Under the pieces are notes generated by a model that saw only the letters and a program-made list of their open reading frames with translations, was not told the origin of the DNA and made no database searches. This document shows positions 46,103 through 64,000 of a stretch of DNA of 64,000 bases, piece by piece. Made by a program: the position numbers and the translations under genes. Numbering within the stretch: position 1 is the stretch's first letter; every line of letters begins with the position of its first letter. Source of the DNA: an uncultured Alteromonadaceae bacterium (GTDB lineage Bacteria; Pseudomonadota; Gammaproteobacteria; Enterobacterales; Alteromonadaceae); assembly GCA_950073835.1 (NCBI GenBank), contig CATMRP010000004.1, positions 1 through 64,000 of the forward strand, written 5' to 3'.

Positions 46103-46375
46103 CTAAACGGCCACCGGCGCTTTGATGTGCGGATGCGACTGATAGTTTTCTAATGTGAAATCATCAATGCTAAAACCAAAGATATCCTTAACCTCAGGGT
46201 TGAGTCGCATAATCGGGCGCGCAAAGGGCTCGCGACTGAGTTGCAGCTCCGTTTGCTCCAGATGGTTCAGGTATAAATGCGCATCGCCCAGGGTATGAAT
46301 AAACTCACCGGGCTGCAAATCGCACACTTGTGCCACCATCAGGGTAAGTAAGGCATAACTGGCGATATTAAACGG
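46103..46375 (-). pseudogene. thyA: Displaced 3' fragment of thymidylate synthase
   Basis: [54 protein letters not shown]...[18 protein letters not shown] is the ThyA C-terminal third. Homology stops abruptly upstream of PFNIAS; the first 18 aa of the track ORF ([18 protein letters not shown]) do not look like ThyA. Confidence 0.92.
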
Positions 46376-46533
46376 TTTTGTGACAATGGGGGTTACATCA
46401 ACAAACGCTTCGCACACATTATTAATCACAATAACTTAACTCTTTCTTCTTAGTCTAAGCAGCATAGTAATATAAAAGGTGGAAGTGTTAAATTGTAAAA
46501 GCTGAAACCATTTCTATAGAAAAGGACTAGACG

Positions 46534-46773
46534 CTAGTTCTTTCTCAAAAAACTGAGTCCTTCAGTTGGCTCTAAACCAAGCGCCTCGCAATATTGCACA
46601 TACTCATATACATTTAGCTTACGTTGAAATGTTTCAACTTTGTTGACGAATTGATGTGATTCATCAATGCGTTCAGCGAACTGGCGAACCGTCAGCCCTT
46701 GCTCTTTTCTGGCGTCTACCAGCCATTTTATTAATGACACGTACCGTTGATTATTGATTGTTTTGTTCATCAA
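46534..46773 (-). CDS. Small XRE/HTH transcriptional regulator
   Basis: VSLIKWLVDARKEQGLTVRQFAERIDESHQFVNKVETFQRKLNVYEYVQYCEALG helix-turn-helix pattern. Confidence 0.8.
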   Translation of the reverse strand: MMNKTINNQRYVSLIKWLVDARKEQGLTVRQFAERIDESHQFVNKVETFQRKLNVYEYVQYCEALGLEPTEGLSFLRKN

Positions 46774-46878
46774 ATCATTATGTTGCCCTTTTCATTTGTC
46801 TCCAAAATAGGGATAAGTAGGAAGTAATCTGCTACGATATAGACTTTCGATAAACCTTATAATCAGCAACCAATTGAA

Positions 46879-47220
46879 ATGAAAGAACTAACGAATGATA
46901 TTGACAGTGGACATGTTAGAGAGCTTTTGAAGGTTGGCGCTCAAGCAATGTTATCTAATCTTCTGGAACATAAAGAGTATCGCGATGGTGTTCTCCAATT
47001 AATGGAAAATCACAACCGAATTGAAACAGGTGAATTGTTATTTGTAGCGCCGTACTATAATTATTGTTGTCAGGCATACGTTGCAGAAGGTAAAAATGGT
47101 CTGTATCGCATTTTTCAACAGAATATCTCTCCAAACATTTCAGCCCCAATCTTTACCATGGACTATATAAACTCGGTTTACATTGAAAACTATGAGCGTT
47201 ATTTCGAAGATAACAAATAG
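46879..47220 (+). CDS. Hypothetical protein
   Basis: 113-aa ORF ending just before the IS30 element; no recognised family. Confidence 0.5.
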   Translation: MKELTNDIDSGHVRELLKVGAQAMLSNLLEHKEYRDGVLQLMENHNRIETGELLFVAPYYNYCCQAYVAEGKNGLYRIFQQNISPNISAPIFTMDYINSVYIENYERYFEDNK

Positions 47221-47235
47221 GATATTCAGGTGTCC

Positions 47236-48322
47236 CGAATTCAGATAATAAGTGCACCACTCATGGTTAAACGGTGAGGAGAGATCAACTGCCTGTTGGT
47301 GGTACTCTGTAGTCGCCAAACAAACATGAGTAGTTACCATGAGTTACAAACAGTTGATCGAGGGACAACGATACCAGATTGAGGCCTACTTGCGCGAGGG
47401 TTTCAGTTATCGGGAGATTGGAAAACGTCTGAGAGTGAGTCATAGCACTATTAGTCGGGAAGTAAATCGCAATCGAATTCGGGATAGCCATTACCTGCCG
47501 GAAGTCGCTCAGGCGAAGACAATAAAACGACGTTGTCAGGCCGCAAAGTACAGGATATTTGAACTGACGATTACCTTTGTTGAGTTCGGGCTTAACGAAA
47601 AGTGGAGCCCTGAGCAGATTGCTGGTGTAGGTAAAATCATCGGTCATCCCGTCAGTCACGAATGGATTTATGGTTATGTCCAGCGGGACAAGTTACGCGG
47701 CGGCAAGTTGTATAAACTACTGTGCCAGAGTCACCGAAGATACCGTAAAGGTAACCGCGCGAAGCGTGTGATTATCCCGAATCGCGTTGGCATAGAACAT
47801 CGTCCCGCTATCGTGAACAAGAAGGAGCGGTTCGGTGACTGGGAAGCTGACACGGTTTTGGGCAAGCAAGGAACGGGCGCGATTGTTAGCTTGGTAGAGC
47901 GTAAAAGTAAGCTGTATCTGATACGCAAAGTGCCTGCGAAAAGCGCAGCCGATGTGGCCCGTGCCATGGTAGGCATGTTGTGGAAATATCGCAGTCATGT
48001 GCGATCTATCACGGCGGACAACGGCAGTGAATTCTGTGACCACGAGCTGGTCGCAGAGAAACTTAAAACGGATATTTACTTCGCAAACCCATATTCATCC
48101 TGGGAACGCGGACTGAATGAAAACTTTAACGGTTTGCTTCGCCAATACATACGTAAAGGCACCGATTTACGGACAGTAACGAACAGGCAGATTGCTGAGA
48201 TTGAACGGGCATTAAATGCCAGACCGAGGAAGTGCCTTGGCTTCAGGCAACCTGTCGCGGTATTCATTGAATTACGCAAGGCTGCCTAATTTAGCGAGTG
48301 GTGCACTTCGGAGTTGAATTCG
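47236..48322 (+). mobile_element. IS30-family insertion sequence
   Basis: Imperfect terminal inverted repeats CGAATTCAGATAATAAGTGCACCACTC (left) and GAGTGGTGCACTTCGGAGTTGAATTCG (right) flanking an IS30-type transposase. Confidence 0.88.
47339..48289 (+). CDS. IS30-family transposase
   Basis: Helix-turn-helix YREIGKRLRVSHSTISREVNRN; DWEADTVLG, SITADNGSEF, NPYSSWERGLNENFNGLLRQYIRKGTDL (DDE). Confidence 0.95.
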   Translation: MSYKQLIEGQRYQIEAYLREGFSYREIGKRLRVSHSTISREVNRNRIRDSHYLPEVAQAKTIKRRCQAAKYRIFELTITFVEFGLNEKWSPEQIAGVGKIIGHPVSHEWIYGYVQRDKLRGGKLYKLLCQSHRRYRKGNRAKRVIIPNRVGIEHRPAIVNKKERFGDWEADTVLGKQGTGAIVSLVERKSKLYLIRKVPAKSAADVARAMVGMLWKYRSHVRSITADNGSEFCDHELVAEKLKTDIYFANPYSSWERGLNENFNGLLRQYIRKGTDLRTVTNRQIAEIERALNARPRKCLGFRQPVAVFIELRKAA

Positions 48323-48555
48323 CGGTAAGCTAAAAACCTTAAAGTTATGAATTTAAGTGTTTTATTTTTAAATTTTGATTGTGGTGTGTGAATCATTTTG
48401 ATGTATTTTTTTTCGCCCCTCTTTATTGGATAATACCTATATAACGAAGATGGATTTATTTTGCCTGGTATTCCAATTCAGGATAATTTTTATCGCCTGT
48501 TACCCAAAACTAAGTTTGGTAATTAGCACTACACTAGCTTTAGGTTACTGTACTC

Positions 48556-48933
48556 ATGTTTAAATGCTCCGAGATAAATTTCACTCCCGAAAAGATTGTC
48601 GAAAATTTAGATGTATTGGCTCAGACCTATTCAATAAGAACGATTTCTTTTTTGCGTTCTATAGGTTTGTCATTTGAGATTACTGAGCTAGATAACGATA
48701 ATCCTGCAAATCGGGCGCAAGCCTTAAATAGGCTATGCGAAATTGACACCTTTTTAAATTCCGCGCGGCCTTGGTTTACTTCTGATAATGAGTGCTGGAA
48801 TTGGTTCATGAATGAGCAGCTCGAAGCGTTTTCACATTTAACGCCGTCAGAAATCGTGAGGCGCTACCAGGGGCGTGGAATTAGCGCTTTGCTTGAGTGG
48901 GCGGAAGAACGAAATCTTGGTAATTTTCAGTAA
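48556..48933 (+). CDS. Hypothetical protein
   Basis: 125-aa ORF in island; no recognised family. Confidence 0.5.
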   Translation: MFKCSEINFTPEKIVENLDVLAQTYSIRTISFLRSIGLSFEITELDNDNPANRAQALNRLCEIDTFLNSARPWFTSDNECWNWFMNEQLEAFSHLTPSEIVRRYQGRGISALLEWAEERNLGNFQ

Positions 48934-49027
48934 AACCACAGCATATTAACTTCCAGGCATAATGATAAAGCGGGAAGTAACACTTCGATTCTTTAGTCAA
49001 TGTCAGAACTAATAATTGGATAAAAAT

Positions 49028-49333
49028 ATGACAGATAATGCTTTTGACGAAATAATGGACAATTTAAGGCATTGGACCAGTGAGGAGATCCATTCACCTT
49101 CATTACTAATGTCCTTGGATGATGGTTCTTTCCATTTAGGCTACTACGCGGGAATGGGGAACTCTGATAGTTCACCTATCGACAATTTTTCGCCACTGTA
49201 TAGAACGAAAATCAACCAGCTTTATCGCGAGGGACAACTGGAAGTCACAGGGCGAGCATTCAGCCTATACCCAGGAAGCGGCCGTTTTAGAAAACTGGTA
49301 TTTACAAAGCAATACCCTGAACCTGGGTCGTAG
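49028..49333 (+). CDS. Hypothetical protein
   Basis: 101-aa ORF MTDNAFDEIMDNLRHWTSEEIHSPSLLMSLDDGSFHLGYYAG... Confidence 0.5.
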   Translation: MTDNAFDEIMDNLRHWTSEEIHSPSLLMSLDDGSFHLGYYAGMGNSDSSPIDNFSPLYRTKINQLYREGQLEVTGRAFSLYPGSGRFRKLVFTKQYPEPGS

Positions 49334-49420
49334 TCAAAATGGATTTCTATGACTAGATACAATGTACAATAGTTATATTTCGTCAGTCATCAATACAAAC
49401 TCTACAGGGACCTTACACTT

Positions 49421-50104
49421 ATGAGCACAAAAGAATGGGTTTCAGAGCCAGCAGACGGTGTTGGAACTTATCAGGATTGTATCTATGATTGGGACAATTA
49501 TGCGGTTAACCCTAATCCGGCGGTAATTCAATTAACCCACTCCGCTGACACGACGATTACGCAGAAATTCATTAACGATAAATTGGCATCACAATTTACG
49601 ATGGAAGTGACTATACCTGCGAAAACGTTTGATAAAATCGCAATCGAATGGTGCAGAAAGCGCTCTCTCAACACAAATAAATACAAGCTAGAGGAACTAC
49701 TCAGTAAATACAATTTTCCGCAATCACATCGAGCAGATGAATCGACCGAAGTTCTGGAAGATGCATTAAGTGGTTCTGAATTTACTCAAACGATAAAAGA
49801 GCAAAGCGAACAGCCTGAAATCGAAGCTAACCTCGAAATAGATAATATATTCAACATATTAACTACAGATCCTCTCGAAGCCGAATATATGCAGGAATCC
49901 AGTAACAAGTTGCTCCAACTCCGAGATGAGGGGCGAAATTTGTCCCGGAAATATCCAATACTAAGCAAAATAGGTAGTGAAGAGGAGCATACGAAGGCAT
50001 TGAGGATGATGGAAATCTTGCTAAACGATTATGACAGTAATTTACTGCTGATTGATGCGCTGAGTTGTTCTATCGCTCGATATGAAGCAGATAATGACGT
50101 TTAA
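49421..50104 (+). CDS. Hypothetical protein
   Basis: 227-aa ORF, 5 nt upstream of the next ORF. Confidence 0.55.
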   Translation: MSTKEWVSEPADGVGTYQDCIYDWDNYAVNPNPAVIQLTHSADTTITQKFINDKLASQFTMEVTIPAKTFDKIAIEWCRKRSLNTNKYKLEELLSKYNFPQSHRADESTEVLEDALSGSEFTQTIKEQSEQPEIEANLEIDNIFNILTTDPLEAEYMQESSNKLLQLRDEGRNLSRKYPILSKIGSEEEHTKALRMMEILLNDYDSNLLLIDALSCSIARYEADNDV

Positions 50105-50109
50105 AAATA

Positions 50110-50547
50110 ATGGTTAGCATTATGGTCAAATCTACAGGTCGGGCTCAACAAGCATTTAATGAAGTAGTACAAAGTCGACTTTCAGATATATCTTCAGAGC
50201 CACTTATTATCGTTGCTTTAGCAATTTGGTACGAAGACTTCATACCGGACATAACTCAATTGACCCGGATTAATGAGATAGCAAGAGCCGGGTATGTTTT
50301 AGAAAAATTAATGACCTTTCACTGTGTGACCCGTGATGTAAGACTCTCTATAACCCCTACGATTAATGAGCTAATTCGGGAGGCTTCAAGTCATATCAAG
50401 TTATTACCCATTGGATCGATTCTAAACGTCAAACAGTTTTCCGGTGACGGGCTAGCACTAAGGTGGAGACTTAGGGAAGATATTCACCGGCAAGTACAAG
50501 ACTTACTGCCCTACCAAGGGCGCACGTATACACATAATAGAGAATAA
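50110..50547 (+). CDS. Hypothetical protein
   Basis: 145-aa ORF (start 50110 or 50122), probably co-transcribed with the preceding ORF. Confidence 0.5.
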   Translation: MVSIMVKSTGRAQQAFNEVVQSRLSDISSEPLIIVALAIWYEDFIPDITQLTRINEIARAGYVLEKLMTFHCVTRDVRLSITPTINELIREASSHIKLLPIGSILNVKQFSGDGLALRWRLREDIHRQVQDLLPYQGRTYTHNRE

Positions 50548-50686
50548 GGCATTGTAAACTCGTAGTTTACAGCGTGTTGGCTCTTAGCTGTTATCTGAGT
50601 CGAAGGTTTGGGAGCATCAATGTTCCGCACTGGTGAGTTTTCTGGTGAATAGTGGCGGTTCAAAGCGAAATAAAATGGATATATAA

Positions 50687-50941
50687 ATGCCTGTTTTACG
50701 AAGTAATCGGTTACCAATTCAGCATCCCGGGGTTGTATTCAAACGATACTATCTTGATAGATATAATATTAAGCTCTCCGATGCTGCGAAGACACTAAAT
50801 TTGAAGATATCTCATCTTAATAACTTTCTCAACGGTGAGGCCACTGTTACTACCCCCTTGGCTACAAAATTGGAGAGCGTCACTGGCATTTCATCAGGCT
50901 TCTGGCTTAATCTACAGAAAAGCTACAAGCTTTATACATAA
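50687..50941 (+). CDS. HigA/VapI-like XRE-family antidote protein
   Basis: IQHPGVVFKRYYLDRYNIKLSDAAKTLNLKISHLNNFLNGEATVTTPLATKLESVTGISSGFWLNLQKSYKL matches the HigA-type pattern. Confidence 0.85.
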   Translation: MPVLRSNRLPIQHPGVVFKRYYLDRYNIKLSDAAKTLNLKISHLNNFLNGEATVTTPLATKLESVTGISSGFWLNLQKSYKLYT

Positions 50942-51367
50942 TCCATAAGGCAACCATGCTTTTCTCTAGACACAAGTTGTTTTTGTTGTGAGGAAGTTGG
51001 CTATAGAAAGAGCGGTGGTTCAAGTCTCCGAAATTAGAGATAAACCATGCCCGATGTAACAGGACTAAAAATGCATTCCCCGAGAGCTTACGAAAGTGTA
51101 CAGAATAGCTTGGAGGTACCCTAAATCTTGAATATCCGATTGCATCTCGTGACAGGAACACATCATTGTACGGTTAGGGTAATTTGGTGGCGTTGTAGAA
51201 GTAATATGCATAATATAACCTGAACATTGACTATAAATTCTGAGATCACATGTTAATCAAAAACGGGTTGAAAGGCTGTTTTTGTTTCGACATATAGTGC
51301 TGTATTTAGGAAGCAAAAAGAATGGCTTGACTTAACGAACAGTGAACGTTGGAGCCGAGGCGTATCC

Positions 51368-53254
51368 ATGGATCATGAAAAATTTAAAAAATTATTAAAA
51401 GACATAAAATTAGGAAAAAAATTACCTGACGCAATCTACCTCCATGTTGATGCATTTGATGAGATTCCTGGCGCCTTGAGTAAGTTTACCCAAATCGTAG
51501 CGAATGCACTGAAAGTGTCTTCATGGAATGTTGCTAAATTTTCCAGGAAGGAATTCAAGCTGTCTTTGTTATACTACCCTGATTTTTATGAAGATTCCTA
51601 TCCTGCTTTAGAACAGGCTGTAACTGTCGACTTAAAAAAGCTTGAACATAAAGTAATTTCCTATAAGGACAGTGAGAACCCACCAATACTTCACCGTAAA
51701 GAGCTTTTCGTACCAGAGTCGCATGGGATGTATGGCCTTTTTTGTGAGATTACCAAAGAAGGCGAAGATGTTGGCTTATATGAAAATACGCGGATCATTG
51801 GCTTTAAGGAAACATGGAAAAATTTAATTGAGAAAAAAGGGTTTACCTTAATTAATGGCCGTATAGCTAAATCATCAGGAAATGGGAGTACTACGACTGA
51901 CGATAAAGTCGTTGATAGGCATAAAACAGCAATTGTCAGACATGAGCTTTCCGCTCCGATGAAGTTGTTAGCTAAAAATGGGTTCCTGAATGGCGACTAC
52001 TCGATATTTGATTTTGGCTGTGGAAGAGGCGATGACTTAACTGAGCTCCAAGCTCATGGTATTGATGCCGTTGGATATGACCCAAACTTCTACCCTGAGT
52101 CTGAAAAAGTCGTAAGTGATATTGTGAACCTAGGCTTCGTTATAAACGTCATAGAAGACAGAGATGAGAGAATTGATGTTGTTCTCCAAGCATGGGAATT
52201 TACCCAAAAGATGCTTGTAGTATCTGTCATGTTAGCAAGTGAAAGCTATATTTCACAGTTTACTGCGTATAAAGACGGTGTAATAACTTCAAGAAACACT
52301 TTTCAAAAGTATTACACGCAAAGTGAAATAAAAGGGTTTCTTGAGTCAGTCATTGGAGATAACGCGGTTGCGTTAGCGCCAGGTATATTCGCTATATTCA
52401 AGGACAAAGAGCTAGAGCAGACATACCAAAAGCACCGATATCAGCGAACTTATGAATGGCAACAAAAGACCTCCCCGCAGTTACCAACTGATGCTGAAAA
52501 ATTAAGAATTGTTTTCGCGCAAAACGAAGAGTTATTCAAAGCATTTTGGCTTAAATGTCTAGTGTTAGGTAGGTGTCCTGCGAACGATGAGTTTTCGAAT
52601 TCAGATGATGTAAGAAAGCTTGTAGGTTCACACAAGAAAGCTTTTAAACTGGCTTTAGATTTCTATTCTGAAGAAGAATTTAAAACAGCAGAGTTGATGA
52701 AAAAAGAGGATTTACTCCTATATTTCTCGATGAGTCTGTTCGACAAACATAAACCTTATACTAAACAGCCTGAAGAAGTGAAACGTGATGTAAAGGCGTT
52801 TTTTGGCGATTATAAAACCGCTAAATCGCTAGCGACTGAATTGCTATTTGAAATTGCAGATGTAGATAAGATTGAAGCGGAATGTATTTTTGCAAATGAA
52901 TCCTTACCTGCTAGTAAACTAGAGCATGAAAGCGGAAAACCGCATTCACTAACAGTTCATAAAACTTATATCGATGCATTGCCTCTTCTTCTGAGAGTTT
53001 ATGTAGGTGCGGCATTACAGCTATATGGAGATCTAGAAGACATCCAATTGGTTAAGCTTCATATTACATCTGGTAAAGTTACTTTGCTTGGATATGAAAA
53101 CTTCGAAAAAGAGGAATTTCCGAAATTGAAGGAGAGGGTTAAGATCAAAATGGCAGAGCAAGATATTGATTTTTTTGATTATATTCATTCGTCAGAACAA
53201 CCTAGGCTAACGGACCGAAGTTCATATGTAGGAGACTTCACTGATGAAAACTAA
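51368..53254 (+). CDS. DNA phosphorothioation-associated putative methyltransferase
   Basis: DRHKTAIVRHELSAPMKLLAKNGFLNGDYSIFDFGCGRGDDLTELQAHGIDAVGYDPNFYPESEKVVSDIVNLGFVINVIEDRDER, the signature of the dnd-associated methyltransferase family. Confidence 0.85.
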   Translation: MDHEKFKKLLKDIKLGKKLPDAIYLHVDAFDEIPGALSKFTQIVANALKVSSWNVAKFSRKEFKLSLLYYPDFYEDSYPALEQAVTVDLKKLEHKVISYKDSENPPILHRKELFVPESHGMYGLFCEITKEGEDVGLYENTRIIGFKETWKNLIEKKGFTLINGRIAKSSGNGSTTTDDKVVDRHKTAIVRHELSAPMKLLAKNGFLNGDYSIFDFGCGRGDDLTELQAHGIDAVGYDPNFYPESEKVVSDIVNLGFVINVIEDRDERIDVVLQAWEFTQKMLVVSVMLASESYISQFTAYKDGVITSRNTFQKYYTQSEIKGFLESVIGDNAVALAPGIFAIFKDKELEQTYQKHRYQRTYEWQQKTSPQLPTDAEKLRIVFAQNEELFKAFWLKCLVLGRCPANDEFSNSDDVRKLVGSHKKAFKLALDFYSEEEFKTAELMKKEDLLLYFSMSLFDKHKPYTKQPEEVKRDVKAFFGDYKTAKSLATELLFEIADVDKIEAECIFANESLPASKLEHESGKPHSLTVHKTYIDALPLLLRVYVGAALQLYGDLEDIQLVKLHITSGKVTLLGYENFEKEEFPKLKERVKIKMAEQDIDFFDYIHSSEQPRLTDRSSYVGDFTDEN

Positions 53255-53536
53255 AAGTTACGTTATCAATTAATCAGGCATGTTTGTAAACGCAATTTCG
53301 ATAAACAGTTGCTTGCAAATTGCCTCATCGAAACTTTCATAATGCCTAAATAGACCTCTAAATCTATAAGTCTAATCTAATATGTTTGATTTTGGTGCTC
53401 TGATTTTCTAAAATCGAATCAACAGATGGAGTTATTCGTTAATCTTTAGAATCAAAGTTTTAACGTTATAGGTGTAATAAATGGATTTTTGCAGTTATTT
53501 TTGTGTATCTATGCTTTTGAGAAAAGACTATTAAAA

Positions 53537-55639
53537 ATGTCTCTAGAGCAGCTTTCTTCGATTTACTTCCCTTCTGAATGTGATATTGACCAAGAATTGT
53601 TCTATCCGGTAGCTTGTTCTAGCAAGTCAATGGATTGTATGGTGGGTTATTTTACAAGCGGCTCTTTAAAAGAACTCGCGCGTTCAATATCAGCCTATCT
53701 GTCAATTGATCAATCGACCAAAATGAGACTAATTGTTAGCCCAACTTTTTCCGATGCAGATATGCAAGCAATTCGTGATGGGCTGGAAACAGATGAAAAT
53801 ATTGTGCCTCTGTTGTTCCCTGATTTTAGGTTGGAAGAGGAAACCTTAAGATCAAAATCTGTGACGGCACTTTTTTATCTAATCGCCAAAAAGAAAATTG
53901 AATTAAAAATTGCACTTAAGTCGTCAGGTATTCTTCACACAAAATGTTGGCTGTTTAATACAGATCATGGAGAAGTTGCGATTCATGGCTCAGGGAATGC
54001 GACACAAGGTGGATTGTCAACTAATTTTGAACAGTTGATATTGAGTCGGAATTGGTTAGATCGATCTTCGGAAGAAATTGTGAAAGGTCTTCGGGATAGG
54101 TTCGATAGGCTTTGGCGGAATGATTATCCAGGAGTCTATACAGCAGGTCTAAATGTTAGAACTATAGACTTTATTAATCGAATTCAACTTGAGTCTAAAG
54201 AAGTTTCTAAACTAAAGATTGAACTTGAACAACTTTTGGCACTGGATAGTTCGGAAGTTCAATTGCAAAAAGCTACTTTAAAAATTCCTGATTGGTTGAG
54301 ATATAGTGAAGGAAAGTTTTCACATCAAGGAAAAGCAATCAATGCGTGGAAAGAGAATAACTACGCAGGAATTCTTTCAATTGCAACCGGTGGTGGAAAA
54401 ACTTTGACATCGCTAGTAGGCGCAACGCTGCTAAATCAAATAAATGACAAGTTATTTTTGGTTATCGCTGTTCCAACTAAGCCCCTGCTAGATCAATGGG
54501 CTGAAGAAGTCGAGCAATTTGGCATAAAGCCAATAATTTGTAATGACATCCCTCAAATTAAGATTAAAAATTATATTAAAAATTGTTTTAAAAACTTGCG
54601 ATTAGGTGTATCAAATTCAGAATGCATAATAATTACGCACGAAGGTTTGAAGTCTTCAGCGATAGAAGAAATAAGTGTATCTAAACGAAAGATTAAAACA
54701 CTTTTGATCGCTGACGAGGTTCATAACCTTGGCAGTCTTGGCTTTAGGGAAGTGGCTCCTAAATTTTTCGATTACAAATTAGGTTTGTCTGCGACACACG
54801 AAAGACAATACGATGAAGATGGTTCTAATTTCCTTTTAGAGTATTTTGGAGGGGTGGTCTTTGAGTATGGATTGGATGAAGCGATTGGGAATTGTTTGGT
54901 AACATACAAATATTTTCCTAAAACGGTTTATCTTACGCCTGAAGAACAAGACGATTTTGCAGATCTGACATTCGAAATTAAAAAATTGTCATTTGCATTC
55001 AACTCTCCGAGTGACTCGAAGGAAGCTGAGAGATTGAAGATTCTTTGTATGAAACGAAGGAAAATAATTGAAACTGCTTCAAACAAAGTTGAAGCGTTTA
55101 AATCTCTTGTCAATGAAAAACCTGGATCATTAGTTCGTGCTTTGGTGTTTTGTTCAGATAAAAAACCAGAACAGTTACAATATATCAATGAAATTTTAAC
55201 TAGTAAAAAGCAAAAGTTTCATCAGGTTACACAAGCAGAAACTTCAAATAAAAAGCTTTTAAAAAGTATAGTTTCAGACTTTAACGATGGGAATTTAAAT
55301 GTTCTTACGTCAATGAGAGTCTTAGATGAAGGATTCAACGTTCCACAAACGGAAAATGCTTTCTTATTGGCAAACAATACAGTCCGACGTCAATGGATTC
55401 AGAGGCTCGGTAGGGTATTAAGACTATCACCTGCAACAGGAAAAAGAGAGGCAATCATTTACGATTTTGTTGCATTACCTTTTTTGCAGGATGATGTTTT
55501 AGACAGAGATTTAGAGTCCTTAATCAAGGGCGAATATATACGTGTCAAGTTTTTTACAGAGCTAGCATCTAATTCCGCATCGAGCGATGGTGGATTGCTA
55601 TTAGTTTCTAATCTTCTGGAGTTGATGAAACAAAAATGA
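53537..55639 (+). CDS. Phospholipase-D-like nuclease / SF2 DEAD-type helicase, resembling the DNA phosphorothioation system restriction enzyme
   Basis: PLD-type HTKCWLFNTDHGEVAIHGSGNATQGGL; helicase LSIATGGGKTLTSLVGATLL, LLIADEVHNL, QRLGRVLR. Confidence 0.75.
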   Translation: MSLEQLSSIYFPSECDIDQELFYPVACSSKSMDCMVGYFTSGSLKELARSISAYLSIDQSTKMRLIVSPTFSDADMQAIRDGLETDENIVPLLFPDFRLEEETLRSKSVTALFYLIAKKKIELKIALKSSGILHTKCWLFNTDHGEVAIHGSGNATQGGLSTNFEQLILSRNWLDRSSEEIVKGLRDRFDRLWRNDYPGVYTAGLNVRTIDFINRIQLESKEVSKLKIELEQLLALDSSEVQLQKATLKIPDWLRYSEGKFSHQGKAINAWKENNYAGILSIATGGGKTLTSLVGATLLNQINDKLFLVIAVPTKPLLDQWAEEVEQFGIKPIICNDIPQIKIKNYIKNCFKNLRLGVSNSECIIITHEGLKSSAIEEISVSKRKIKTLLIADEVHNLGSLGFREVAPKFFDYKLGLSATHERQYDEDGSNFLLEYFGGVVFEYGLDEAIGNCLVTYKYFPKTVYLTPEEQDDFADLTFEIKKLSFAFNSPSDSKEAERLKILCMKRRKIIETASNKVEAFKSLVNEKPGSLVRALVFCSDKKPEQLQYINEILTSKKQKFHQVTQAETSNKKLLKSIVSDFNDGNLNVLTSMRVLDEGFNVPQTENAFLLANNTVRRQWIQRLGRVLRLSPATGKREAIIYDFVALPFLQDDVLDRDLESLIKGEYIRVKFFTELASNSASSDGGLLLVSNLLELMKQK

Positions 55640-55869
55640 GTATTTCATACAAAAAAATAAATTCTTTAATAGATCAAGTATTAGATGAAGAAATACCAAA
55701 TGAAGAATTTCGTGCTCTTTCAAATGAGCAAAAATTGACATTAAGAAAACTTTGTAAAGAGGTTTATATGTTGGAATCGTCCCCTGGAAATGAATTCAGC
55801 TCCTCTCAAATTTTATCTGATATTAAAGGAAAGATTAATCTTTCGTCCGATAAAATAGTTGGAGGGTGA
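55636..55869 (+). CDS. Small hypothetical protein in defence operon
   Basis: ATGA overlap with the upstream helicase stop; its 3' end contains the RBS (GGAGGG) of the next gene. Confidence 0.7.
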   Translation: MSISYKKINSLIDQVLDEEIPNEEFRALSNEQKLTLRKLCKEVYMLESSPGNEFSSSQILSDIKGKINLSSDKIVGG

Positions 55870-55871
55870 AT

Positions 55872-58016
55872 ATGAAACTGATTTCGGCAAAAATCCAAAA
55901 TTTTAGGATGCTTAAAGATATTTATCTTGAATTTTCAGTCGATCCTGAAAAGCCTTTGACGGTAATTCGAGCAGCAAATGAAACTGGCAAAACAACATGT
56001 TTAAATGCATTAATGTGGTGCCTATACGGCGATGATGCTCTTCCATCTAAAACGTCATATGTTTTGTTCCCTAATGATCTCAAAAAAACAGAAACAAAAC
56101 GTGTAGAAGTCTCAGTAGAAATTGACTTTCAAATGGAAAAACCTCCGGTTAAAGAAAGCGATAAGCCATCGATCGTTACGTATAGAATTAATCGCAGAGT
56201 TTCAGAACGTTTAGACCAATCAGGTTTTTCTAAAAGAGCTGGCGCTGATGAATTGAATATGTACGTTGTGAGAAATGTTGGCTTGGAACGTGTAATCGAC
56301 TCTGAAGCCGCTCGAATCATAGAAAATGCGTTACCTCAAAGTTTGAAAGATGTCTATTTCACTGATGGTGATTCAGTAATGTCATTTATTGAGGCCTCAG
56401 CAAACCAAACAGCTAAAAGAAGAAGGGTTAGTAGAGCAATAGAGGCGCTTCTAGGACTAGATTACTTGGATTCAGCGATAAAGCGAGTTGAAAAAGTCAG
56501 TAAAGAATTTAGTCGAGCGATAGATGACAAAGATTATGCGGAGGAAGTTAAAAAAATTGAAGATCAAATTGAATTCTTTGAAGACGAATTAGATGAACGC
56601 CAAGCTTCATTGGATGAAGCTAGTAGCAATCTCGCTAATGCAGATAAGGAATTGGAATCTGTAGAAAAGCGGATTCAAGAAGAACTTAAAAAAGGTGACA
56701 AGTCCGAACTAGTCCAGAGGAAAACAAGTTTGAAACATAGGCTTGTAAAACAACAGGCTAATTTAGATAAGGATCTGGGTAAACTTGCAAGCTGCCTATA
56801 CTCTGAATCACTTGCAACCGAAATGTTAGCAGCGCATTTTCAAAAAGGCTTCAAGATATTAAAGGAGCTCAGTGACCACAAGCAACTACCTAAAGTAAAT
56901 ATACCAATTTTAGAAGAACTTTTAGGACGTAATGATTGCTTTTGCGGAGCAGACCTGTCAATTGAAAGCGAGGAAGGTTTAAGTCGACACAATAAAATAA
57001 AAGAAGCGATTGAAGATAGTCGGACTTCCGACAAAATTCAGGAAGTAGCAACAAGCCTTTATTATCGTGTTAGAAGTATCGATTTTAACAATGCCGTTGG
57101 TACATGGGTTGATGAATATGGTCAAGATTTTAGAGCTTGGAATAATAGCGCGACTCTTGTTGCGGGTGTTGAGGCGGATTTAGAATCTTTAGAATTAGAA
57201 ATCGATGCTTTTGGTGATGGAGCAAAACTATTACCGGAACTTCGTGATTTAGAGCGCTCCCTTCGTAAGGCAAGAGATGAAGCAATCGGGAAAATTGGGG
57301 CTGATAACGCAGCTATAAAATCTACTAAAGAGAAGATAACCGAGTTAAATGAAGATCTTGAAAAATCGACAAAAAAATTAGGTAAAAAAGATTCCAATGC
57401 TGATAAATATAAAACTGCCAAACTAGTAAAAAAAGTTCTTCAAAATGTTGAGGAAGCTCTTAAAGGAGAAGAGCTACTCAAGGTTAGTAATGAAATGAAT
57501 AGAATCTTTCTAGAAATGATTGGTTCTAGTCCAGAGGAAAACGACTTTGCGCAGATTACTAAAGCAGAGTTGACTCAAGATTTTGATATCATGGTGTATG
57601 GTTCAGGTGGAGCCGAGTTAAATCCTGATAGAGATCTTAATGGAGCATCAAGACGTGCAATTACACTCGCTTTTATTTTAGCTCTGACAAAGGTAAGTGA
57701 AGTTGAAGCACCAAATGTTATTGATACTCCTCTTGGAATGATGTCTGGGTATGTAAAGCAATCGTGTCTAAATCAAACGTTGAAAGAAGGTAGTCAGGCT
57801 ATTTTATTTCTAACACATTCTGAAATACACGAGGTAGAGGGAATTTTAGACAAAAAGGCCGGAAAAATATTCACATTAACAAACCCTGCTCATTTTCCAA
57901 GGATGTTAATAAACAAGCCGCCGGTGGAAGATTTTAGAATTATACGCTGCGATTGTACTCATCGTATGGAATGTGAAGTATGTGCTCGGCGAGATCTTTC
58001 GGAGGCATTAGCATGA
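55872..58016 (+). CDS. SMC/Rad50-like ATPase resembling DndD
   Basis: AANETGKTTCLNALMWCLYGDDALP Walker A; long coiled-coil region; CFCG motif mid-protein; late VIDTPLGMMSGYVKQ Walker-B/D-loop region; C-terminal CDCTHRMECEVCARRD. Confidence 0.75.
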   Translation: MKLISAKIQNFRMLKDIYLEFSVDPEKPLTVIRAANETGKTTCLNALMWCLYGDDALPSKTSYVLFPNDLKKTETKRVEVSVEIDFQMEKPPVKESDKPSIVTYRINRRVSERLDQSGFSKRAGADELNMYVVRNVGLERVIDSEAARIIENALPQSLKDVYFTDGDSVMSFIEASANQTAKRRRVSRAIEALLGLDYLDSAIKRVEKVSKEFSRAIDDKDYAEEVKKIEDQIEFFEDELDERQASLDEASSNLANADKELESVEKRIQEELKKGDKSELVQRKTSLKHRLVKQQANLDKDLGKLASCLYSESLATEMLAAHFQKGFKILKELSDHKQLPKVNIPILEELLGRNDCFCGADLSIESEEGLSRHNKIKEAIEDSRTSDKIQEVATSLYYRVRSIDFNNAVGTWVDEYGQDFRAWNNSATLVAGVEADLESLELEIDAFGDGAKLLPELRDLERSLRKARDEAIGKIGADNAAIKSTKEKITELNEDLEKSTKKLGKKDSNADKYKTAKLVKKVLQNVEEALKGEELLKVSNEMNRIFLEMIGSSPEENDFAQITKAELTQDFDIMVYGSGGAELNPDRDLNGASRRAITLAFILALTKVSEVEAPNVIDTPLGMMSGYVKQSCLNQTLKEGSQAILFLTHSEIHEVEGILDKKAGKIFTLTNPAHFPRMLINKPPVEDFRIIRCDCTHRMECEVCARRDLSEALA

Positions 58017-58447
58017 CTGACAACCCTTTCGCTACGTTTAATATAACTACGCCAAGAAGATACACAGAAGAAATTAAGAAATATTGTCAAACTTCTGGTG
58101 GTCAGGTAACTCACAAGTATGCTCCATTTAAACGACAAGTGGATTTTTGGTACTTAGCGTTTTTATATGCTGTAAGACAGGGTTTGCAGCCTGTTAAAGA
58201 AACTGATTCAGTGAATATGACTACTGCAACAATTCTTACTCAAGAGTCTTATCGTATTAGTTATATACAACTATCACATTTGGGGGAGTTCCAAGATATA
58301 AATTTGTTAGCTGAACATAGGGTGGTTTTCGAATGGGCCATATCAATGGCGAATGCTGGTATTCCTTATCTGCTCCAAATTGTATCAGACACCGATGATA
58401 CTCCCTTAGATAACTTGCTTACAGAGGTAGAGAGGATACTAGGTTAA
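58013..58447 (+). CDS. Hypothetical protein, last gene of the DndD-like operon
   Basis: ATGA overlap with the upstream ATPase; MTDNPFATFNITTPRRYTEEIKKYCQTSGGQ...; no family recognised with confidence. Confidence 0.7.
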   Translation: MTDNPFATFNITTPRRYTEEIKKYCQTSGGQVTHKYAPFKRQVDFWYLAFLYAVRQGLQPVKETDSVNMTTATILTQESYRISYIQLSHLGEFQDINLLAEHRVVFEWAISMANAGIPYLLQIVSDTDDTPLDNLLTEVERILG

Positions 58448-58603
58448 ATGTCTATATAGGGGGGGACGTTTTAATAGCTATCTTTTGTAAATAAAATGTT
58501 AAATTTAAATTCGATGCATAAACCTTCGATTTTAAATAACTGCGTATAGCTGACTCCCCTTTTCTTAGGTGCATTAGTTTCTCATAGTATTATGCAAATT
58601 TTT

Positions 58604-58618
58604 TCACACCTTGTGTGA
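58604..58618. promoter_or_regulatory. Palindromic operator candidate upstream of the DUF4007 operon
   Basis: TCACACCTTGTGTGA, 6-bp arms with 3-nt spacer. Confidence 0.4.
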
Positions 58619-58651
58619 TATATGATGTGTTTATAATACAACTATCTTGAG

Positions 58652-58670
58652 ACAGGTTTTAAAGACCTGT
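58652..58670. promoter_or_regulatory. Second palindrome upstream of the DUF4007 operon
   Basis: ACAGGTTTTAAAGACCTGT, 6-bp arms. Confidence 0.35.
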
Positions 58671-58768
58671 GCTTAAACATTTTCAAAGTTAACGAATTTT
58701 CTCCTTGCTTGCTCTATCTGTATAGTTACAATCTTGTCTTGGACAAATTCTCCAGTAGGTAAGATGTA

Positions 58769-59728
58769 ATGGAACCTAAGTTCTCAGGACACGAGACATT
58801 CCCTTTAAGATATGGCTGGCTTTATAAATCAGTCAACTTATTGAATAAAAAAACAAAACTAAGCACCTCAAATAACGAAGATGTACAAGACGCAATCGTT
58901 GAGCTAGGTGTTGGTAAAAACATGGTGAACGCAATTCGCTACTGGAGTGAAGCGTGCTCGGTGATAAAGACGCAAAAAAATGACGCCTCTCAGAGCTTAA
59001 CTGAAATAGGTAAGTATCTATTTTTGCCGTCAGATACACTAACTTCGCGAAGCAGTAATGATGCTGCAAATGATCCTTTTCTCGAAAAGACAGGCAGTAT
59101 TTGGCTAATTCATTTCCTTCTCAACTTTGACGAAGATGTCCTAACTTCATATCGCTATTTTTTCAACTTATCTCCTATGCAGAATTTTGAAAAGGAAAAG
59201 TTAACTTACGATATTTCACATGATATCAATTCGTTATGTGGAAAAGAGGTTAATGATAGTACCATCAAAAAAGATGTTGATTGCTTCCTACAATCCTACG
59301 CACGAAAGGCGTCTTCAACTGGTAAGAAGTCAGGGAATATTGGCGAAGAACATTTTGCATCACCATTAATTGAGCTTGGTCTTATCAAAGACTTAGGTAA
59401 AGGTGCTTATTCTTCTTTGTTAGAAGAACGTTCTAGTTTGCCTACAGAGATATTTTCATATGCGTTATTACGCTTTCTGAAAGACATTAAGAGAACAGAT
59501 ACAATAGGTTTTGACTCATTACTGTCAGATCAGTGTTCTCCCGGAAAAATCTTCAGACTGTCTGAGCGAGGTCTCGGCATACAGTTAGATAATGCAGTAA
59601 GAAAATATCCTGAACTATTCGTCGAAACGGATACCCAGGGAATGCGACAAGTGCGATTAATGAAAAAATTTAGTGAAAATGAAAACTACCACTTCATTCT
59701 CGATGATTATTACAGAGGCGCGAAGTGA
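58769..59728 (+). CDS. DUF4007-family protein
   Basis: FSGHETFPLRYGWLYKSV...AIVELGVGKNMVNAIRYWSEACSVI, characteristic N-terminus; the family is recurrent in phosphorothioation/BREX-type loci. Confidence 0.85.
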   Translation: MEPKFSGHETFPLRYGWLYKSVNLLNKKTKLSTSNNEDVQDAIVELGVGKNMVNAIRYWSEACSVIKTQKNDASQSLTEIGKYLFLPSDTLTSRSSNDAANDPFLEKTGSIWLIHFLLNFDEDVLTSYRYFFNLSPMQNFEKEKLTYDISHDINSLCGKEVNDSTIKKDVDCFLQSYARKASSTGKKSGNIGEEHFASPLIELGLIKDLGKGAYSSLLEERSSLPTEIFSYALLRFLKDIKRTDTIGFDSLLSDQCSPGKIFRLSERGLGIQLDNAVRKYPELFVETDTQGMRQVRLMKKFSENENYHFILDDYYRGAK

Positions 59729-62700
59729 TAAGAATTAAGCAAAATTATAAAAGCTCTACGAGAATAGACGGTGCAGTAGATTCAAAGACATTCGTAGAGA
59801 ATTTTGTACTTCACGGAACAGCGTTGAGTACATTAGATACGCTCGGTAAAGAAGTTAGGAATACTAGCCAAAGGTGTTTTACTCTCACAGGCACCTATGG
59901 AACAGGTAAGTCAACATTTGCTCTTTTCATGTCATTGCTTCTTTCGGGTTGTAAGAAGGATCGAGATTTTGCGCAGAAAAAATTATTAGCAGCGGATCCA
60001 AGCAGCAGCTTTATAAATGAATTAGGTTTAAAAAAGGGCTGGAGGATAGTAAAGCACGTATGTGGCCTAGATTCTCCTGCTGAAGGGTTAGCAAACAGCA
60101 TTTTACAGGCTCTTGAAAACTCATCTGCTCCAGCAAATAAATCAGATCATGACTATATAGACTTAATTGATACATCACTTTCTAACGCTGCTAAAAGTGA
60201 TGATGGAGTCCTTATTTTACTCGATGAGATGGGTAAGGCGCTTGATTACCAATCTCGTGAAAACAAAGACTTACATTTCTTCCAAGAATTAGCTGATACG
60301 ATAGAAAAAAGTAACACTCAAGTGGTTTTAGTCGGCTTTTTACACCAATCTTTCGCTGAATATGCTCGCTCAATGACTTCTCATATTCAAAGGGAGTGGG
60401 GGAAAGTTCAAGGGCGCTATAGAGATATAGCCTACTCACCATCAATTGATGAGTCTTTAGTTCTGATTGGTGAAACGGTTGTTGCTGATGACATTTCTCG
60501 AAATAAATTAGCGGAGAAATATACAGGGTTGGTCGATGTTGTTAGTAAATACCTCGTCCAAAAACGAAATGTTTTGTCATCTCTAAGAAATGCACTTCCA
60601 ATAGATCCCGTGGTCAGCTTACTTTTAGGACCGATTTCTAAGCGTTCTTTTTCTCAAAACGAGCGAAGCTTGTTTGGATTTTTAGCTTCTAGCGAAAAGC
60701 TAAGCTTCAATCAATTTATTAATACCTTCTATAAAGATGACTCTCAAAGCTCTGAGTTGCGATTATATAATGCAAACTTATTTTGGCAGTATCTAACCGT
60801 TAACTTAGACCACATCATCTCAGCCAGTAGAGACGGTAAAATATGGTTGGAAGCGAAAGATGCAATCTACCGAGCATCTTTAGATGGCCATGAGTTGCAT
60901 GAGGCCATTACTAAAACCGTAGCCCTTATTACGATGTTTGGCTTTCAACATCAATTATTTGCCAAACGTGAATTCCTGGAAAATTATTTTAATGAACTGG
61001 GTTATACTAAATCCAAAGTCAAGGCAGCAATTAAGGATCTAGAAGCTTGGAAGGTACTAATTTATAGAGATCAATACAAAGCTTTAGCTATATTTCAGGG
61101 AAGCGATATTGATGTCAACGAATTGGTAACATCAACCGTAGATGCTATCAAGGATGGTATTGATTGGGTTGCAGAGATTCAATCAACCAAGCATGTTTTA
61201 GCAACTGCACACTATCATAAGAAAGGAACGATGAGATGGGCTGATGTTACTTTGCTTAGTGAGCGTAATATCAGTTCGGTTGGCAATATTTCTGAAACCC
61301 CAAAAGATAATGAACCCTTTTTGTACTTCTTTGTTCCAACATCTGCTTCTACACTTCAAGCTTTACATCGATCTTCAAATGTACACAAAAGGATTGTGCT
61401 CGGTCGTAATGTAACACCAGAGAGTTTAAAAAGTCTCGCTATTGAGCAGATAGCTCTTAGAAAAATTTTAAAAATTAATAAAGCTTTGGCGCATGACAAG
61501 ATTGCCAAAGAAGAAATTACGAGCAGACTTCAAGCCAACGATAGAGCTTTGGAAAGTGAGTTAGAAGTAATCTTTAATAAAGCAGAGTGGTTGTACTGTG
61601 GTAAGTCATACAATGACAAGAATCTAAATTCACTTGTTTCTAAATTTGCAGACGAAATTTACCCTCAATCTCCAGTTATCATTAACGAACTAGTTAACCG
61701 TAACAAGCCTTCTGGTAGTGCTAACGCAGCAATTAAAAAGTTAGTGCTGGCGATGGCGGAGAACTACGATCAAGAGCTATTAGGGCTGCCTGAAGATACT
61801 TTCCCTGCTGAAAAAGGACTATATTTTTCGTGTTTGAAAAACTTTGGAATACACGCCCAGGAAAAAAACGCAGAGTGGGGATTTGTTGAGTTTATTAGAG
61901 ATGAAAATGAACTCGTAGATCAATTATTCCATAACACTCACGAGCAGTTAGTATTGAAAGCTCAATCACCGGTTTGGTTATCTGAAATAGACGCCTACTG
62001 GGCAGCTCCACCTTATGGTTTAACGAAAGGGATTCGTACAATTTGGCTCATGGCCTTCGTGCTACAGCATATGAAAGACTATGCGTTTTACGATAAAAAT
62101 GAGTCTACAGGGGAAGTGATTTTCATAACTCAACCTGATGACGAGTTTGCCTTGAAGCTTTTTCAGAAGCCTCAAAGCGTCGCTGTACAAGCTATTCAAA
62201 TAGACCAAGGAAAAACAGCGTATCTAAACAAGTTGGCGGAGGCTCTTGATTTAGTGACAGGCAATGAATTTGGGTACGCAAAAGAAGTTACTCCCCTAAG
62301 AATTGCAGAAGGTTTTGTTACATTCTTCTCGAAGCTGTCTAGTTGGACAGTTGCGACTAAAAATGTGCCAGCAAAAGGGCGTAAATTCATAGAAATCACA
62401 AGAAAAGCCTCGGATCCACATGATTATCTGTTCAAAGCAATACCATCGATTTTTGAGACGGCATTGGACAATATCACTATATTACAAGTAGAAGATTTAT
62501 TACTCTCACTGCGGAACGCTCACCAAGAGATGATATCCAATTTTGAGATGACGATTAGAAAGGCATTTGGAGAAAAGTTGATTTCCTCAGATGTTTGCGA
62601 AGCTGTAATTAACTTTACTCACGATCATAAACTGAAATCATTTTCGCAGCGATTGAGTGAGCGTAGAGATGGAGATAATAGCTGGGTATCAAACATTATT

Positions 62701-62949
62701 TCATTGCTTTCATCTAAATCGGAAAGAAATTGGGATGACCTTGCAATCAATCGTGCTTCATCTGAACTACCTGAATTAGTTGAAAAATTCAAATTGGCTG
62801 CGCATCGTGCAGAATTTAAAGATATGGACTCTTTGTTAATAAAGCGAGAATTTCAGAGCCAGGTGTCCTCTATCACTAAGTCACTTGATGGGTTGGATGT
62901 GAATAAGAAGCGTGCATTGTTAGTGGCGTTATTGGACGAGCTAAATTAA
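59725..62949 (+). CDS. Large P-loop ATPase, BrxC/PglY-like
   Basis: FTLTGTYGTGKSTFALFMSLLL (Walker A), GVLILLDEMGKALDY (Walker B), 1074 aa; start overlaps the DUF4007 stop; followed immediately by a PAPS-reductase gene. Confidence 0.7.
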   Translation: MIRIKQNYKSSTRIDGAVDSKTFVENFVLHGTALSTLDTLGKEVRNTSQRCFTLTGTYGTGKSTFALFMSLLLSGCKKDRDFAQKKLLAADPSSSFINELGLKKGWRIVKHVCGLDSPAEGLANSILQALENSSAPANKSDHDYIDLIDTSLSNAAKSDDGVLILLDEMGKALDYQSRENKDLHFFQELADTIEKSNTQVVLVGFLHQSFAEYARSMTSHIQREWGKVQGRYRDIAYSPSIDESLVLIGETVVADDISRNKLAEKYTGLVDVVSKYLVQKRNVLSSLRNALPIDPVVSLLLGPISKRSFSQNERSLFGFLASSEKLSFNQFINTFYKDDSQSSELRLYNANLFWQYLTVNLDHIISASRDGKIWLEAKDAIYRASLDGHELHEAITKTVALITMFGFQHQLFAKREFLENYFNELGYTKSKVKAAIKDLEAWKVLIYRDQYKALAIFQGSDIDVNELVTSTVDAIKDGIDWVAEIQSTKHVLATAHYHKKGTMRWADVTLLSERNISSVGNISETPKDNEPFLYFFVPTSASTLQALHRSSNVHKRIVLGRNVTPESLKSLAIEQIALRKILKINKALAHDKIAKEEITSRLQANDRALESELEVIFNKAEWLYCGKSYNDKNLNSLVSKFADEIYPQSPVIINELVNRNKPSGSANAAIKKLVLAMAENYDQELLGLPEDTFPAEKGLYFSCLKNFGIHAQEKNAEWGFVEFIRDENELVDQLFHNTHEQLVLKAQSPVWLSEIDAYWAAPPYGLTKGIRTIWLMAFVLQHMKDYAFYDKNESTGEVIFITQPDDEFALKLFQKPQSVAVQAIQIDQGKTAYLNKLAEALDLVTGNEFGYAKEVTPLRIAEGFVTFFSKLSSWTVATKNVPAKGRKFIEITRKASDPHDYLFKAIPSIFETALDNITILQVEDLLLSLRNAHQEMISNFEMTIRKAFGEKLISSDVCEAVINFTHDHKLKSFSQRLSERRDGDNSWVSNIISLLSSKSERNWDDLAINRASSELPELVEKFKLAAHRAEFKDMDSLLIKREFQSQVSSITKSLDGLDVNKKRALLVALLDELN

Positions 62950-62963
62950 GGAGATTTAAAGCC

Positions 62964-64000
62964 TTGGATTCTAACAAAACGTTACATGTTTTAGGTCTAT
63001 CTGGTGGAAAGGATAGTGCTGCGCTAGCCATGTATATGAGGGACAACTATCCAGATCTCGATATTCATTATTACTTCACTGATACAGGTAAAGAACTACC
63101 AGAAGTAAACATTTTTATCGATAAATTGAGAGGTTACCTGGGAAAGGAAATCATTGACCCGTATGAAGAAGTCTTTACATCTAACCGAAAGAAGAAAGAC
63201 TTCGACTATCATTTAGAACAGCATAAGAATTATTTACCTTCCCCTCAAGCTCGTTGGTGCACTATTCAAATGAAATTAGTGCCTTTTGAGCAATGGGTTA
63301 AGAAGAAAATAGAAGAGGAAGGTTATACCGAAATAATTTCTTATGTTGGTATTCGTGCCGACGAACCCGAACGTGATGGTTTCTTAACAAACAATGTAAC
63401 GGAAGAGTTTATAACCATCAAAATGCCTTTCAGAGAAGATGGTTTGAATCGTCAGGATATACTCAATATCTTGCAACAAGCTGATTTGTATAGCGATGAT
63501 GAAGAAGTTAAAGCTTTCAGGGAAGTAAAGTTAGGCTGCAATGGCATAGAGCAAATGTTGCCAGAAGAGCTTCTCTTTGGACATTTTGAGCAAAGATTAA
63601 AACTTATAAAGTCAAACCCTAATCATCCATATTATGGCTCGAATATCGATGTATCTACACTTGCAAAGGTAGTGAGTGCGATGGATCAAGGTAAACCTGG
63701 CTATTATGGCTGGCGATCTCGAAGTGGTTGTACATTTTGCTTTTATCAACAAAAAATTGAATGGCTTCGATTAATGGAAATTTATCCTGATGCATATGAA
63801 GAAGCCAAACAATACGAGAAAGCTGCTGAAGACGAAAGACCAGACGGTACGTTTTATTGGTTAGGTAAGGGGACGCCTCTTTCAGTTCTTGAAGATGAAG
63901 AACGAAAGCAAATGATCTTGGAAAACCATAAAAAGCGTTATGATCGTTTTGTGAAAAAGCAAGAAAGACAAAGAGCAAGAAACCCACTACAAAAAATCAT
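62964..64000 (+). CDS. Phosphoadenosine phosphosulfate reductase-family protein (BrxP/DndC-like), 3' truncated by window edge
   Basis: Frame open to window end from TTG 62964 (RBS AAGGAG): MDSNKTLHVLGLSGGKDSAALAMYMRDNYPDLDIHYYFTDTGKELPE (PP-loop SGGKDS)...YYGWRSRSGCTFCFYQQKIEW (CxxC). Confidence 0.85.
   Translation, partial: MDSNKTLHVLGLSGGKDSAALAMYMRDNYPDLDIHYYFTDTGKELPEVNIFIDKLRGYLGKEIIDPYEEVFTSNRKKKDFDYHLEQHKNYLPSPQARWCTIQMKLVPFEQWVKKKIEEEGYTEIISYVGIRADEPERDGFLTNNVTEEFITIKMPFREDGLNRQDILNILQQADLYSDDEEVKAFREVKLGCNGIEQMLPEELLFGHFEQRLKLIKSNPNHPYYGSNIDVSTLAKVVSAMDQGKPGYYGWRSRSGCTFCFYQQKIEWLRLMEIYPDAYEEAKQYEKAAEDERPDGTFYWLGKGTPLSVLEDEERKQMILENHKKRYDRFVKKQERQRARNPLQKI

Follow-up and report, generated by a model that had tools for sequence, protein, structure and literature searches.

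A predicted SspABCD phosphorothioation writer beside a PbeABCD-type effector cassette in a mobile island of an uncultured Alteromonadaceae bacterium

Gene content of the locus

The stretch analysed here, called the window throughout, comprises the first 64,000 nucleotides of contig CATMRP010000004.1 (C4) of an uncultured Alteromonadaceae bacterium (GCA_950073835.1, here G000) and harbors a defence locus in which a predicted DNA sulfur-modification ("writer") module of the SspABCD type adjoins a PbeABCD-type effector cassette. The source genome is a 4.9-Mb draft in 301 contigs, C4 itself ends at 76,872, and about 4% of the genome is missing from the assembly. The open reading frame list and profile searches place every gene of the locus from 51368 onwards on the plus strand, in the order TIGR04096, pbeA, a 77-residue pbeB candidate, pbeC, a pbeD candidate of about 144 residues, sspB, sspC and sspD, with sspA lying convergently beyond the window. 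The Ssp and Pbe labels rest on hidden Markov models built from few sequences.

51368-53254, plus strand: TIGR04096 phosphorothioation-associated methyltransferase-like gene, 628 amino acids (aa); profile match 1.4e-189
53191-58675, no strand: exchanged segment (blastn against Alteromonas oceani)
53537-55639, plus strand: pbeA, HKD/PLD nuclease fused to a superfamily 2 (SF2) helicase; PADLOC PbeA 3.4e-180, with PLDc_2, ResIII and Helicase_C domains
55636-55869, plus strand: pbeB candidate, 77 aa, assigned by position; overlaps pbeA at its stop (ATGA) and the start region of pbeC
55872-58016, plus strand: pbeC, CxC zinc-hook ABC ATPase of the DndD-sister clade; PADLOC PbeC 1.3e-49
58013-58447, plus strand: pbeD candidate, 144 aa; start overlaps the pbeC stop, homologues in the equivalent slot
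58769-59728, plus strand: sspB (DUF4007, 2.1e-74); PADLOC SspB 3.3e-84; PDB 6juf/6lb9
59725-62949, plus strand: sspC ATPase; PADLOC SspC E = 0, 1360 bits; overlaps sspB by 4 bp
62964-64000, continuing to C4:64082, plus strand: sspD, PAPS-reductase/ATP-pyrophosphatase family, 372 aa; PADLOC SspD 4.8e-99
C4:64151-65248, just outside the window, convergent to sspBCD: sspA cysteine desulfurase; PDB SspA 1e-96

A sequence-only reading of the window had described a one-strand set of dnd-associated methyltransferase, PLD-nuclease/helicase, DndD-like ATPase, DUF4007 protein, BrxC-like ATPase and PAPS-reductase-family protein. Profile matches confirmed every member of this set, and the list has now been extended by the 77-aa pbeB, the pbeD of about 144 aa and the sspA gene just beyond the window. 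The PADLOC comparison proposed in that reading assigned PbeA, PbeC, SspB, SspC and SspD decisively.

A predicted SspABCD writer

The DUF4007 protein corresponds to SspB, being matched by the PADLOC SspB model and by the 'SspB protein' structures 6juf and 6lb9 (1.7e-30), so that the earlier statement that no SspB-like protein is recognisable does not hold. The adjoining ATPase fits the SspC model (E = 0) far better than BrxC (1.4e-53); SspC ATPases have been placed in an Orc/Cdc6-type clade (PMC10853773). For the PAPS-reductase-family protein, the SspD model (4.8e-99) likewise stands far ahead of BrxP (1.1e-9) and DndC (4.5e-8). At 372 aa, this SspD exceeds most others (about 278 aa) by about 95 aa; Colwellia (L076) and the congeners examined share the long form. 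The best PDB match of the desulfurase is the 'SspA complex protein'. With sspB, sspC and sspD in one operon and sspA adjacent, the gene set of an SspABCD writer is present, and these matches predict a complete writer of the single-strand DNA phosphorothioation type.

A DndC profile search of the genome gave nothing above cut-off, the sole, weak match being SspD, which is hence the only recognisable sulfur writer of the genome; DndCDE encoded elsewhere was therefore rejected as a partner of the Pbe cassette. SspE (GmrSD_N, DUF262-type) was not found in the genome. The window proteins match Pbe models and none matches SspF, SspG or SspH, and a genome search with a related SspH was empty, which is a weak negative. 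Neither SspE nor SspFGH was thus retained as the effector of the window locus.

The sequence-only reading had seen a composite phosphorothioation-type locus with the DUF4007-ATPase-PAPS reductase set as its modification arm, which the SspB, SspC and SspD matches bear out, and had assigned that set to BREX type 4. SspB, SspC and SspD are indeed homologous to the DUF4007 protein, BrxC-type ATPase and PAPS reductase of BREX type 4 (PMC12839542). However, PglZ (PF08665) was not found in a genome-wide search, and beyond 64 kb lie not the forecast pglZ and brxL/lon-like genes but sspA, integrase-like, RecD2-type and recombinase-like genes and thyA; BrxL was sought among the genes downstream on the contig, the whole genome not being searched for it, and none was seen. 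Moreover, the DUF4007 protein and the PAPS reductase are separate proteins, the SspD model is far ahead of BrxP, and the locus has a dedicated SspA as well as a Pbe cassette. We therefore reject the assignment to BREX type 4, which we regard as exceedingly improbable and which would require an unlinked PglZ or BrxL in the missing part of about 4% of the genome.

A PbeABCD-type effector cassette

The PLD-helicase protein is matched by PbeA of PADLOC and also by TIGR04095 (2.5e-102, under the cut-off of that model). Its likely start, judged from start context, is the ATG at 53537, the longest open reading frame beginning at 53489. In the PbeA alignment H150, K152, G167, S168, N170, the Walker A motif ATGGGKT and the DEVH box are all retained. 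PbeC also matches DndD (TIGR03185) under cut-off, and its CxC hook (C356/C358) is, together with G39, K40 and T41, invariant in 12 of 12 aligned sequences. PbeC of the window lineage carries a second, conserved C-terminal cysteine cluster (RCxCxH...CxxC) that is lacking in the Dnd-paired PbeC proteins listed and is a candidate for a role in recognising the mark or binding a partner.

The pbeB candidate found no match in the family libraries; it shares 37% identity over 67 aa with the same-slot protein of Thiothrix (L075) and 32% over 78 aa with that of L077. Homologues of the pbeD candidate occupy the equivalent slot in 10 loci, and searches of Pfam, PADLOC and NCBIfam assigned it to no family. 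Identity with DndE is unsupported by profile-profile comparison, which was negative. The structural model (predicted local distance difference test score, pLDDT, 89) retrieved DndE as all of the top 7 of 26 PDB matches in Foldseek, but with E values of at least 1.8, a fold match that is weak but specific. Counterparts in other Pbe lineages match dnd_assoc_4, mostly under the model cut-off, and the window protein is too diverged for this model.

Both the PLD-SF2 helicase PbeA and the CxC ABC ATPase PbeC of PbeABCD systems are thus present, whereas the pairing with DndCDEA that characterizes the described systems is replaced by one with SspABCD. The proposal that the upstream operon is a restriction arm is in line with a PbeABCD-type cassette; its dependence on sulfur would follow by analogy with Dnd-Pbe (PMC6459918).

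The TIGR04096 methyltransferase-like protein

The TIGR04096 protein has a class-I S-adenosylmethionine-dependent methyltransferase fold, and its motif I (D-x-G-C-G-x-G-x-D) is invariant in the alignment. In Foldseek its model was closest to small-molecule and tRNA-type methyltransferases (best E 6e-4), with no DNA base methyltransferase among the 50 matches listed; the fold search thus gives no support to a role as DNA base methyltransferase. In a class sample of 369 genomes, all five with full-length TIGR04096 have SspD on the same contig, 7-27 kb away. An Ssp-specific role, which this would suggest, was ruled out by copies that adjoin DndCDE in three loci (L086, L113 and L114). Since TIGR04096 is found with Ssp-SspFGH, Ssp-SspE, Ssp-Pbe and Dnd loci alike, it appears to be a general companion of sulfur writers.

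Ssp and Pbe modules are recurrently linked

When 85,462 species genomes were scanned with the PbeA alignment, 80 loci were fetched; as these are the ones nearest to the window PbeA, they form a biased set and not a census. SspB or SspD was encoded within about 10 kb in 14 of the 80, and one more is probable, with SspA and TIGR04096 at contig ends. Dnd genes were present in 20 loci, and 45 showed neither Ssp nor Dnd, many of these being short contigs or truncated cyanobacterial PbeA. Strong SspD matches occurred in 10 of the 369 genomes of the class sample, a density from which about 0.02 Ssp-linked loci among 80 would be expected by chance. The Ssp-Pbe linkage exceeds this expectation. Besides the window, the pair was found in at least 16 other loci and in at least 6 phyla; outside the set of 80, it occurs in two loci of the same genus (L160, L163) and on two plasmids. 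On one of these, the finished plasmid CP099618.1 (L183), sspA-B-C-D-pbeA-B-C-D run in one direction as a single block, the genes overlapping or all but abutting.

In a PbeA tree made by a quick method, the window belongs to a clade of 12 rows (Shimodaira-Hasegawa-like approximate likelihood ratio support 100), of which 11 are Ssp-linked and one has no writer in view; it spans Thiothrix, Colwellia, Rhodothermales, Verrucomicrobiota, Acidobacteriota, Poribacteria and alphaproteobacteria. A second, mainly gammaproteobacterial PbeA lineage is also Ssp-linked and neighbors Dnd-linked rows, and at least three switches between Ssp and Dnd partners are needed on the tree.

Some Ssp-Pbe loci encode a second effector: SspE at L079:15033-17345 (PADLOC 1.6e-213), a GmrSD_N protein at L093:7641-9974 and a protein of the same size at L081:5700-8039. 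In Cetobacterium and a Clostridia metagenome-assembled genome (L103 and L091), PbeA stands beside distant SspB/SspC/SspA-like genes, possibly a BREX-4-like writer with Pbe.

PbeABCD has been known until now only beside Dnd, and its pairing with SspABCD appears to be new. Among the accessible main texts we found none stating such a pairing, and an earlier mention is possible. The accessible part of a 2020 survey counts human-microbiome strains with phosphorothioate-modifying genes plus pbeA-D, not as a linked Ssp-Pbe locus (PMC7464106).

The Pbe cassette differs from that of a sister species

The sister species Alteromonas oceani S35 (L108) has the same island at about 99% identity. SspA and SspB are 100% identical, SspD 99.5%, SspC and the integrase 99.3%, RecD2 99.0% and the TIGR04096 protein 98.9%. 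By blastn, positions 46265-53190 (99.1%) and 58676-68293 (99.6%) align with A. oceani and nothing in between does. Identity breaks at 53190, within the last 22 codons of TIGR04096, and returns at 58676, 93 bp upstream of sspB, so that 5485 bp of the window are replaced in A. oceani by 5568 bp holding a Pbe cassette that is inverted and belongs to a different lineage (PbeA 29.8% and PbeC 20.8% identity). Immediately to the left of the island, the two chromosomes share about 89% identity, a value obtained by subtraction from the alignment totals. We conclude from the higher identity of the island that it moved recently and that the cassette changed around that time. The gene order of A. oceani and its closest PbeA are shared with Pseudoalteromonas (L089), hence the window cassette is probably the newcomer.

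An assembly chimera could produce the same picture, given that the genome is a draft and that contig C4 ends inside the island. Against this, genes stay open at both junctions (the methyltransferase has 628 aa and sspB is intact), the insert comprises a full set of overlapping pbeABCD genes, and leftover similarity fades at the junctions as expected from homologous exchange. The A. oceani arrangement matches that of Pseudoalteromonas L089, and two further effector states stand beside SspBCD within the same genus. We consider a chimera highly unlikely.

The genus provides three more genomes with SspB at about 75% identity: G389 carries a second Pbe lineage, G380 a third, and G401 instead a trio of SF2 helicase, GHKL-ATPase and PLD protein. 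A trio of SF2 helicase, HATPase_c_3 (MzaB-like) and PLD protein adjoins sspBCD in two distant genomes (L161:5172-9568 and L067:11230-15634) and, judged from this gene context, may be a further Ssp effector type. A Mantel-type comparison of identities over 13-17 loci (9 for TIGR04096) gave high correlations within modules (SspC-SspB 0.88, SspC-SspD 0.92, PbeA-PbeC 0.81) and low ones between them (SspC-PbeA 0.18, p 0.10; SspC-PbeC 0.12, p 0.18; TIGR04096-PbeA -0.09).

Predicted function and alternative readings

We think it likely that the locus encodes a phosphorothioate-based anti-phage system composed of two separately inherited modules, a writer and an effector. Direct support comes from the gene identities, the intact motifs, the recurrent Ssp-Pbe linkage, the cassette exchange and the lack of a DndC homologue besides SspD. 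The production of phosphorothioate, its reading by Pbe and the order of events are our inferences. SspA would take sulfur off cysteine and SspD would activate and transfer it, after which SspB, as nickase and DNA recognition protein, and the SspC ATPase would install it on one strand of a short motif in host DNA; characterized SspABCD marks a single strand within a short sequence motif, which in Vibrio is CCA (PMC8092258). A complex of PbeC and PbeD (ABC ATPase and DndE-like protein) would then scan incoming DNA and treat DNA devoid of sulfur marks as foreign, the PbeA helicase/PLD nuclease would be engaged, and replication of unmarked DNA would be blocked or damaged. PbeB may be a small accessory protein or regulator, and the cassette would be an exchangeable part of a mobile island inside thyA. 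In archaea, PbeABCD depends on phosphorothioate in the cell and prevents unmarked virus from replicating, while virus that bears phosphorothioate is left unharmed. Hemi-modified sites make up about half of the marks there (PMC6459918), which makes it plausible that Pbe reads a one-strand Ssp mark. Rakesh et al. (PMC10853773) anticipate DNA scanning by PbeC/PbeD and cleavage by PbeA, and by analogy we infer the same division of labor in the window system.

Several points weigh against this interpretation: TIGR04096 has no explained role in it, the assignment of pbeB and pbeD relies chiefly on position and the similarity of PbeD to DndE is weak, the assembly is a draft, and the many Pbe modules that have no sulfur writer nearby could mean that Pbe acts without one. 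The last point would also fit two independent defence systems sharing an island, SspABCD making its own mark as an orphan writer or with another partner, and Pbe working with TIGR04096 or another signal. Such independence would agree with the nearly uncorrelated SspC and PbeA identities, with solitary PbeAC near methyltransferases in the literature (PMC6459918) and with the default clustering of defence genes. However, the linkage lies far over background, reaches across at least 6 phyla and in part takes the form of operons with overlapping genes in one direction, module exchange predicts uncorrelated identities equally well, and TIGR04096 is not Pbe-specific, occurring with Ssp-SspFGH, Ssp-SspE and Dnd, while its fold matches small-molecule and tRNA-type enzymes. 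Two independent systems are hence the less probable explanation, unlikely in our judgement but not negligible, and we prefer the two-module writer-effector system.

The near-identical islands of sister species with different attack modules in the same slot suggest effector swapping between fixed writers. We lean slightly towards a general form of this idea, in which phosphorothioate writers serve as constant platforms whose effector slot can be refilled, SspABCD recruits unrelated effectors by cassette exchange (SspE, SspFGH, at least three Pbe lineages and the helicase, GHKL-ATPase and PLD trio), and one Pbe lineage is dedicated to strand-asymmetric Ssp marks.

Relation to known systems

As in the SspABCD-SspE and SspABCD-SspFGH systems of Vibrio and E. 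coli (PMC8092258), the window has sspB-C-D with sspA nearby and a separate effector cassette, and SspFGH acts on DNA without phosphorothioate, as proposed here for Pbe. The difference lies in the effector, PbeABCD; SspF, SspG and SspH models fit other loci (L060) and not the window. The gene order pbeABCD is that of DndCDEA-PbeABCD of Haloterrigena jeotgali A29 (PMC6459918) and of the 'CxC ABC ATPase-DndE system' (PMC10853773), with which the window also shares a PLD-helicase PbeA, a small PbeB, a CxC-hook PbeC and a PbeD of about 150 aa. In contrast to these, its Pbe is paired with SspABCD, PbeC has the extra C-terminal cysteine tail and PbeD misses dnd_assoc_4.

The large majority of sspBCD operons have no adjoining sspE or sspFGH (Wang et al., PMC8092258), and Ssp-Pbe is a recurrent, phylum-spanning partner arrangement for some of them. 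Pbe has so far been regarded as a reader of Dnd marks; should it work with strand-asymmetric Ssp marks as well, a comparison of lineages could test what in Pbe senses sulfur. A. oceani and the window form a natural swap, with writers 99-100% and Pbe cassettes 20-30% identical, of direct use for compatibility and phage-range tests.

The mobile island and neighboring features

The island sits inside a native thyA and brings its own intact thyA. In A. oceani about 41.7 kb separate the C-terminal from the N-terminal fragment of the interrupted native gene. At the left boundary, homology to congeners ends near window position 46375. After sspA come genes for an integrase-like protein of 438 aa, a RecD2-type helicase and two large proteins resembling recombinases, followed by thyA; the recombination genes are 99% identical in A. 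oceani where compared.

46103-46429 (window) and C4:74970-75887, both minus strand: thyA-related features
G431:C26:109519-109797, 138469-139383 and 151476-152036: thyA-related features of A. oceani
C4:65410-74963 (L002:7411-16964): island recombination genes, encoding the 438-aa integrase-like protein, the RecD2-type helicase, two small proteins, a 701-aa Phage_integrase protein and a 989-aa protein

A scan of the locus for promoters and terminators gave sites no commoner than in shuffled sequence, and an Rfam search of 46-64 kb found no RNA families. At the left island end (47339-48289) lies a gene that by eye resembles an IS30-type transposase (316 aa, helix-turn-helix plus integrase core). 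Just 5' of the TIGR04096 gene, positions 50687-50941 encode a HigA-family antitoxin (TIGR02607 above cut-off), and no HigB was noticed adjoining it. A second PLD-helicase-type protein of the source genome (1280 aa; G000:C13:36154-43236, equal to L074:6154-13237) is encoded beside two 1077-aa proteins and probably marks another defence locus.

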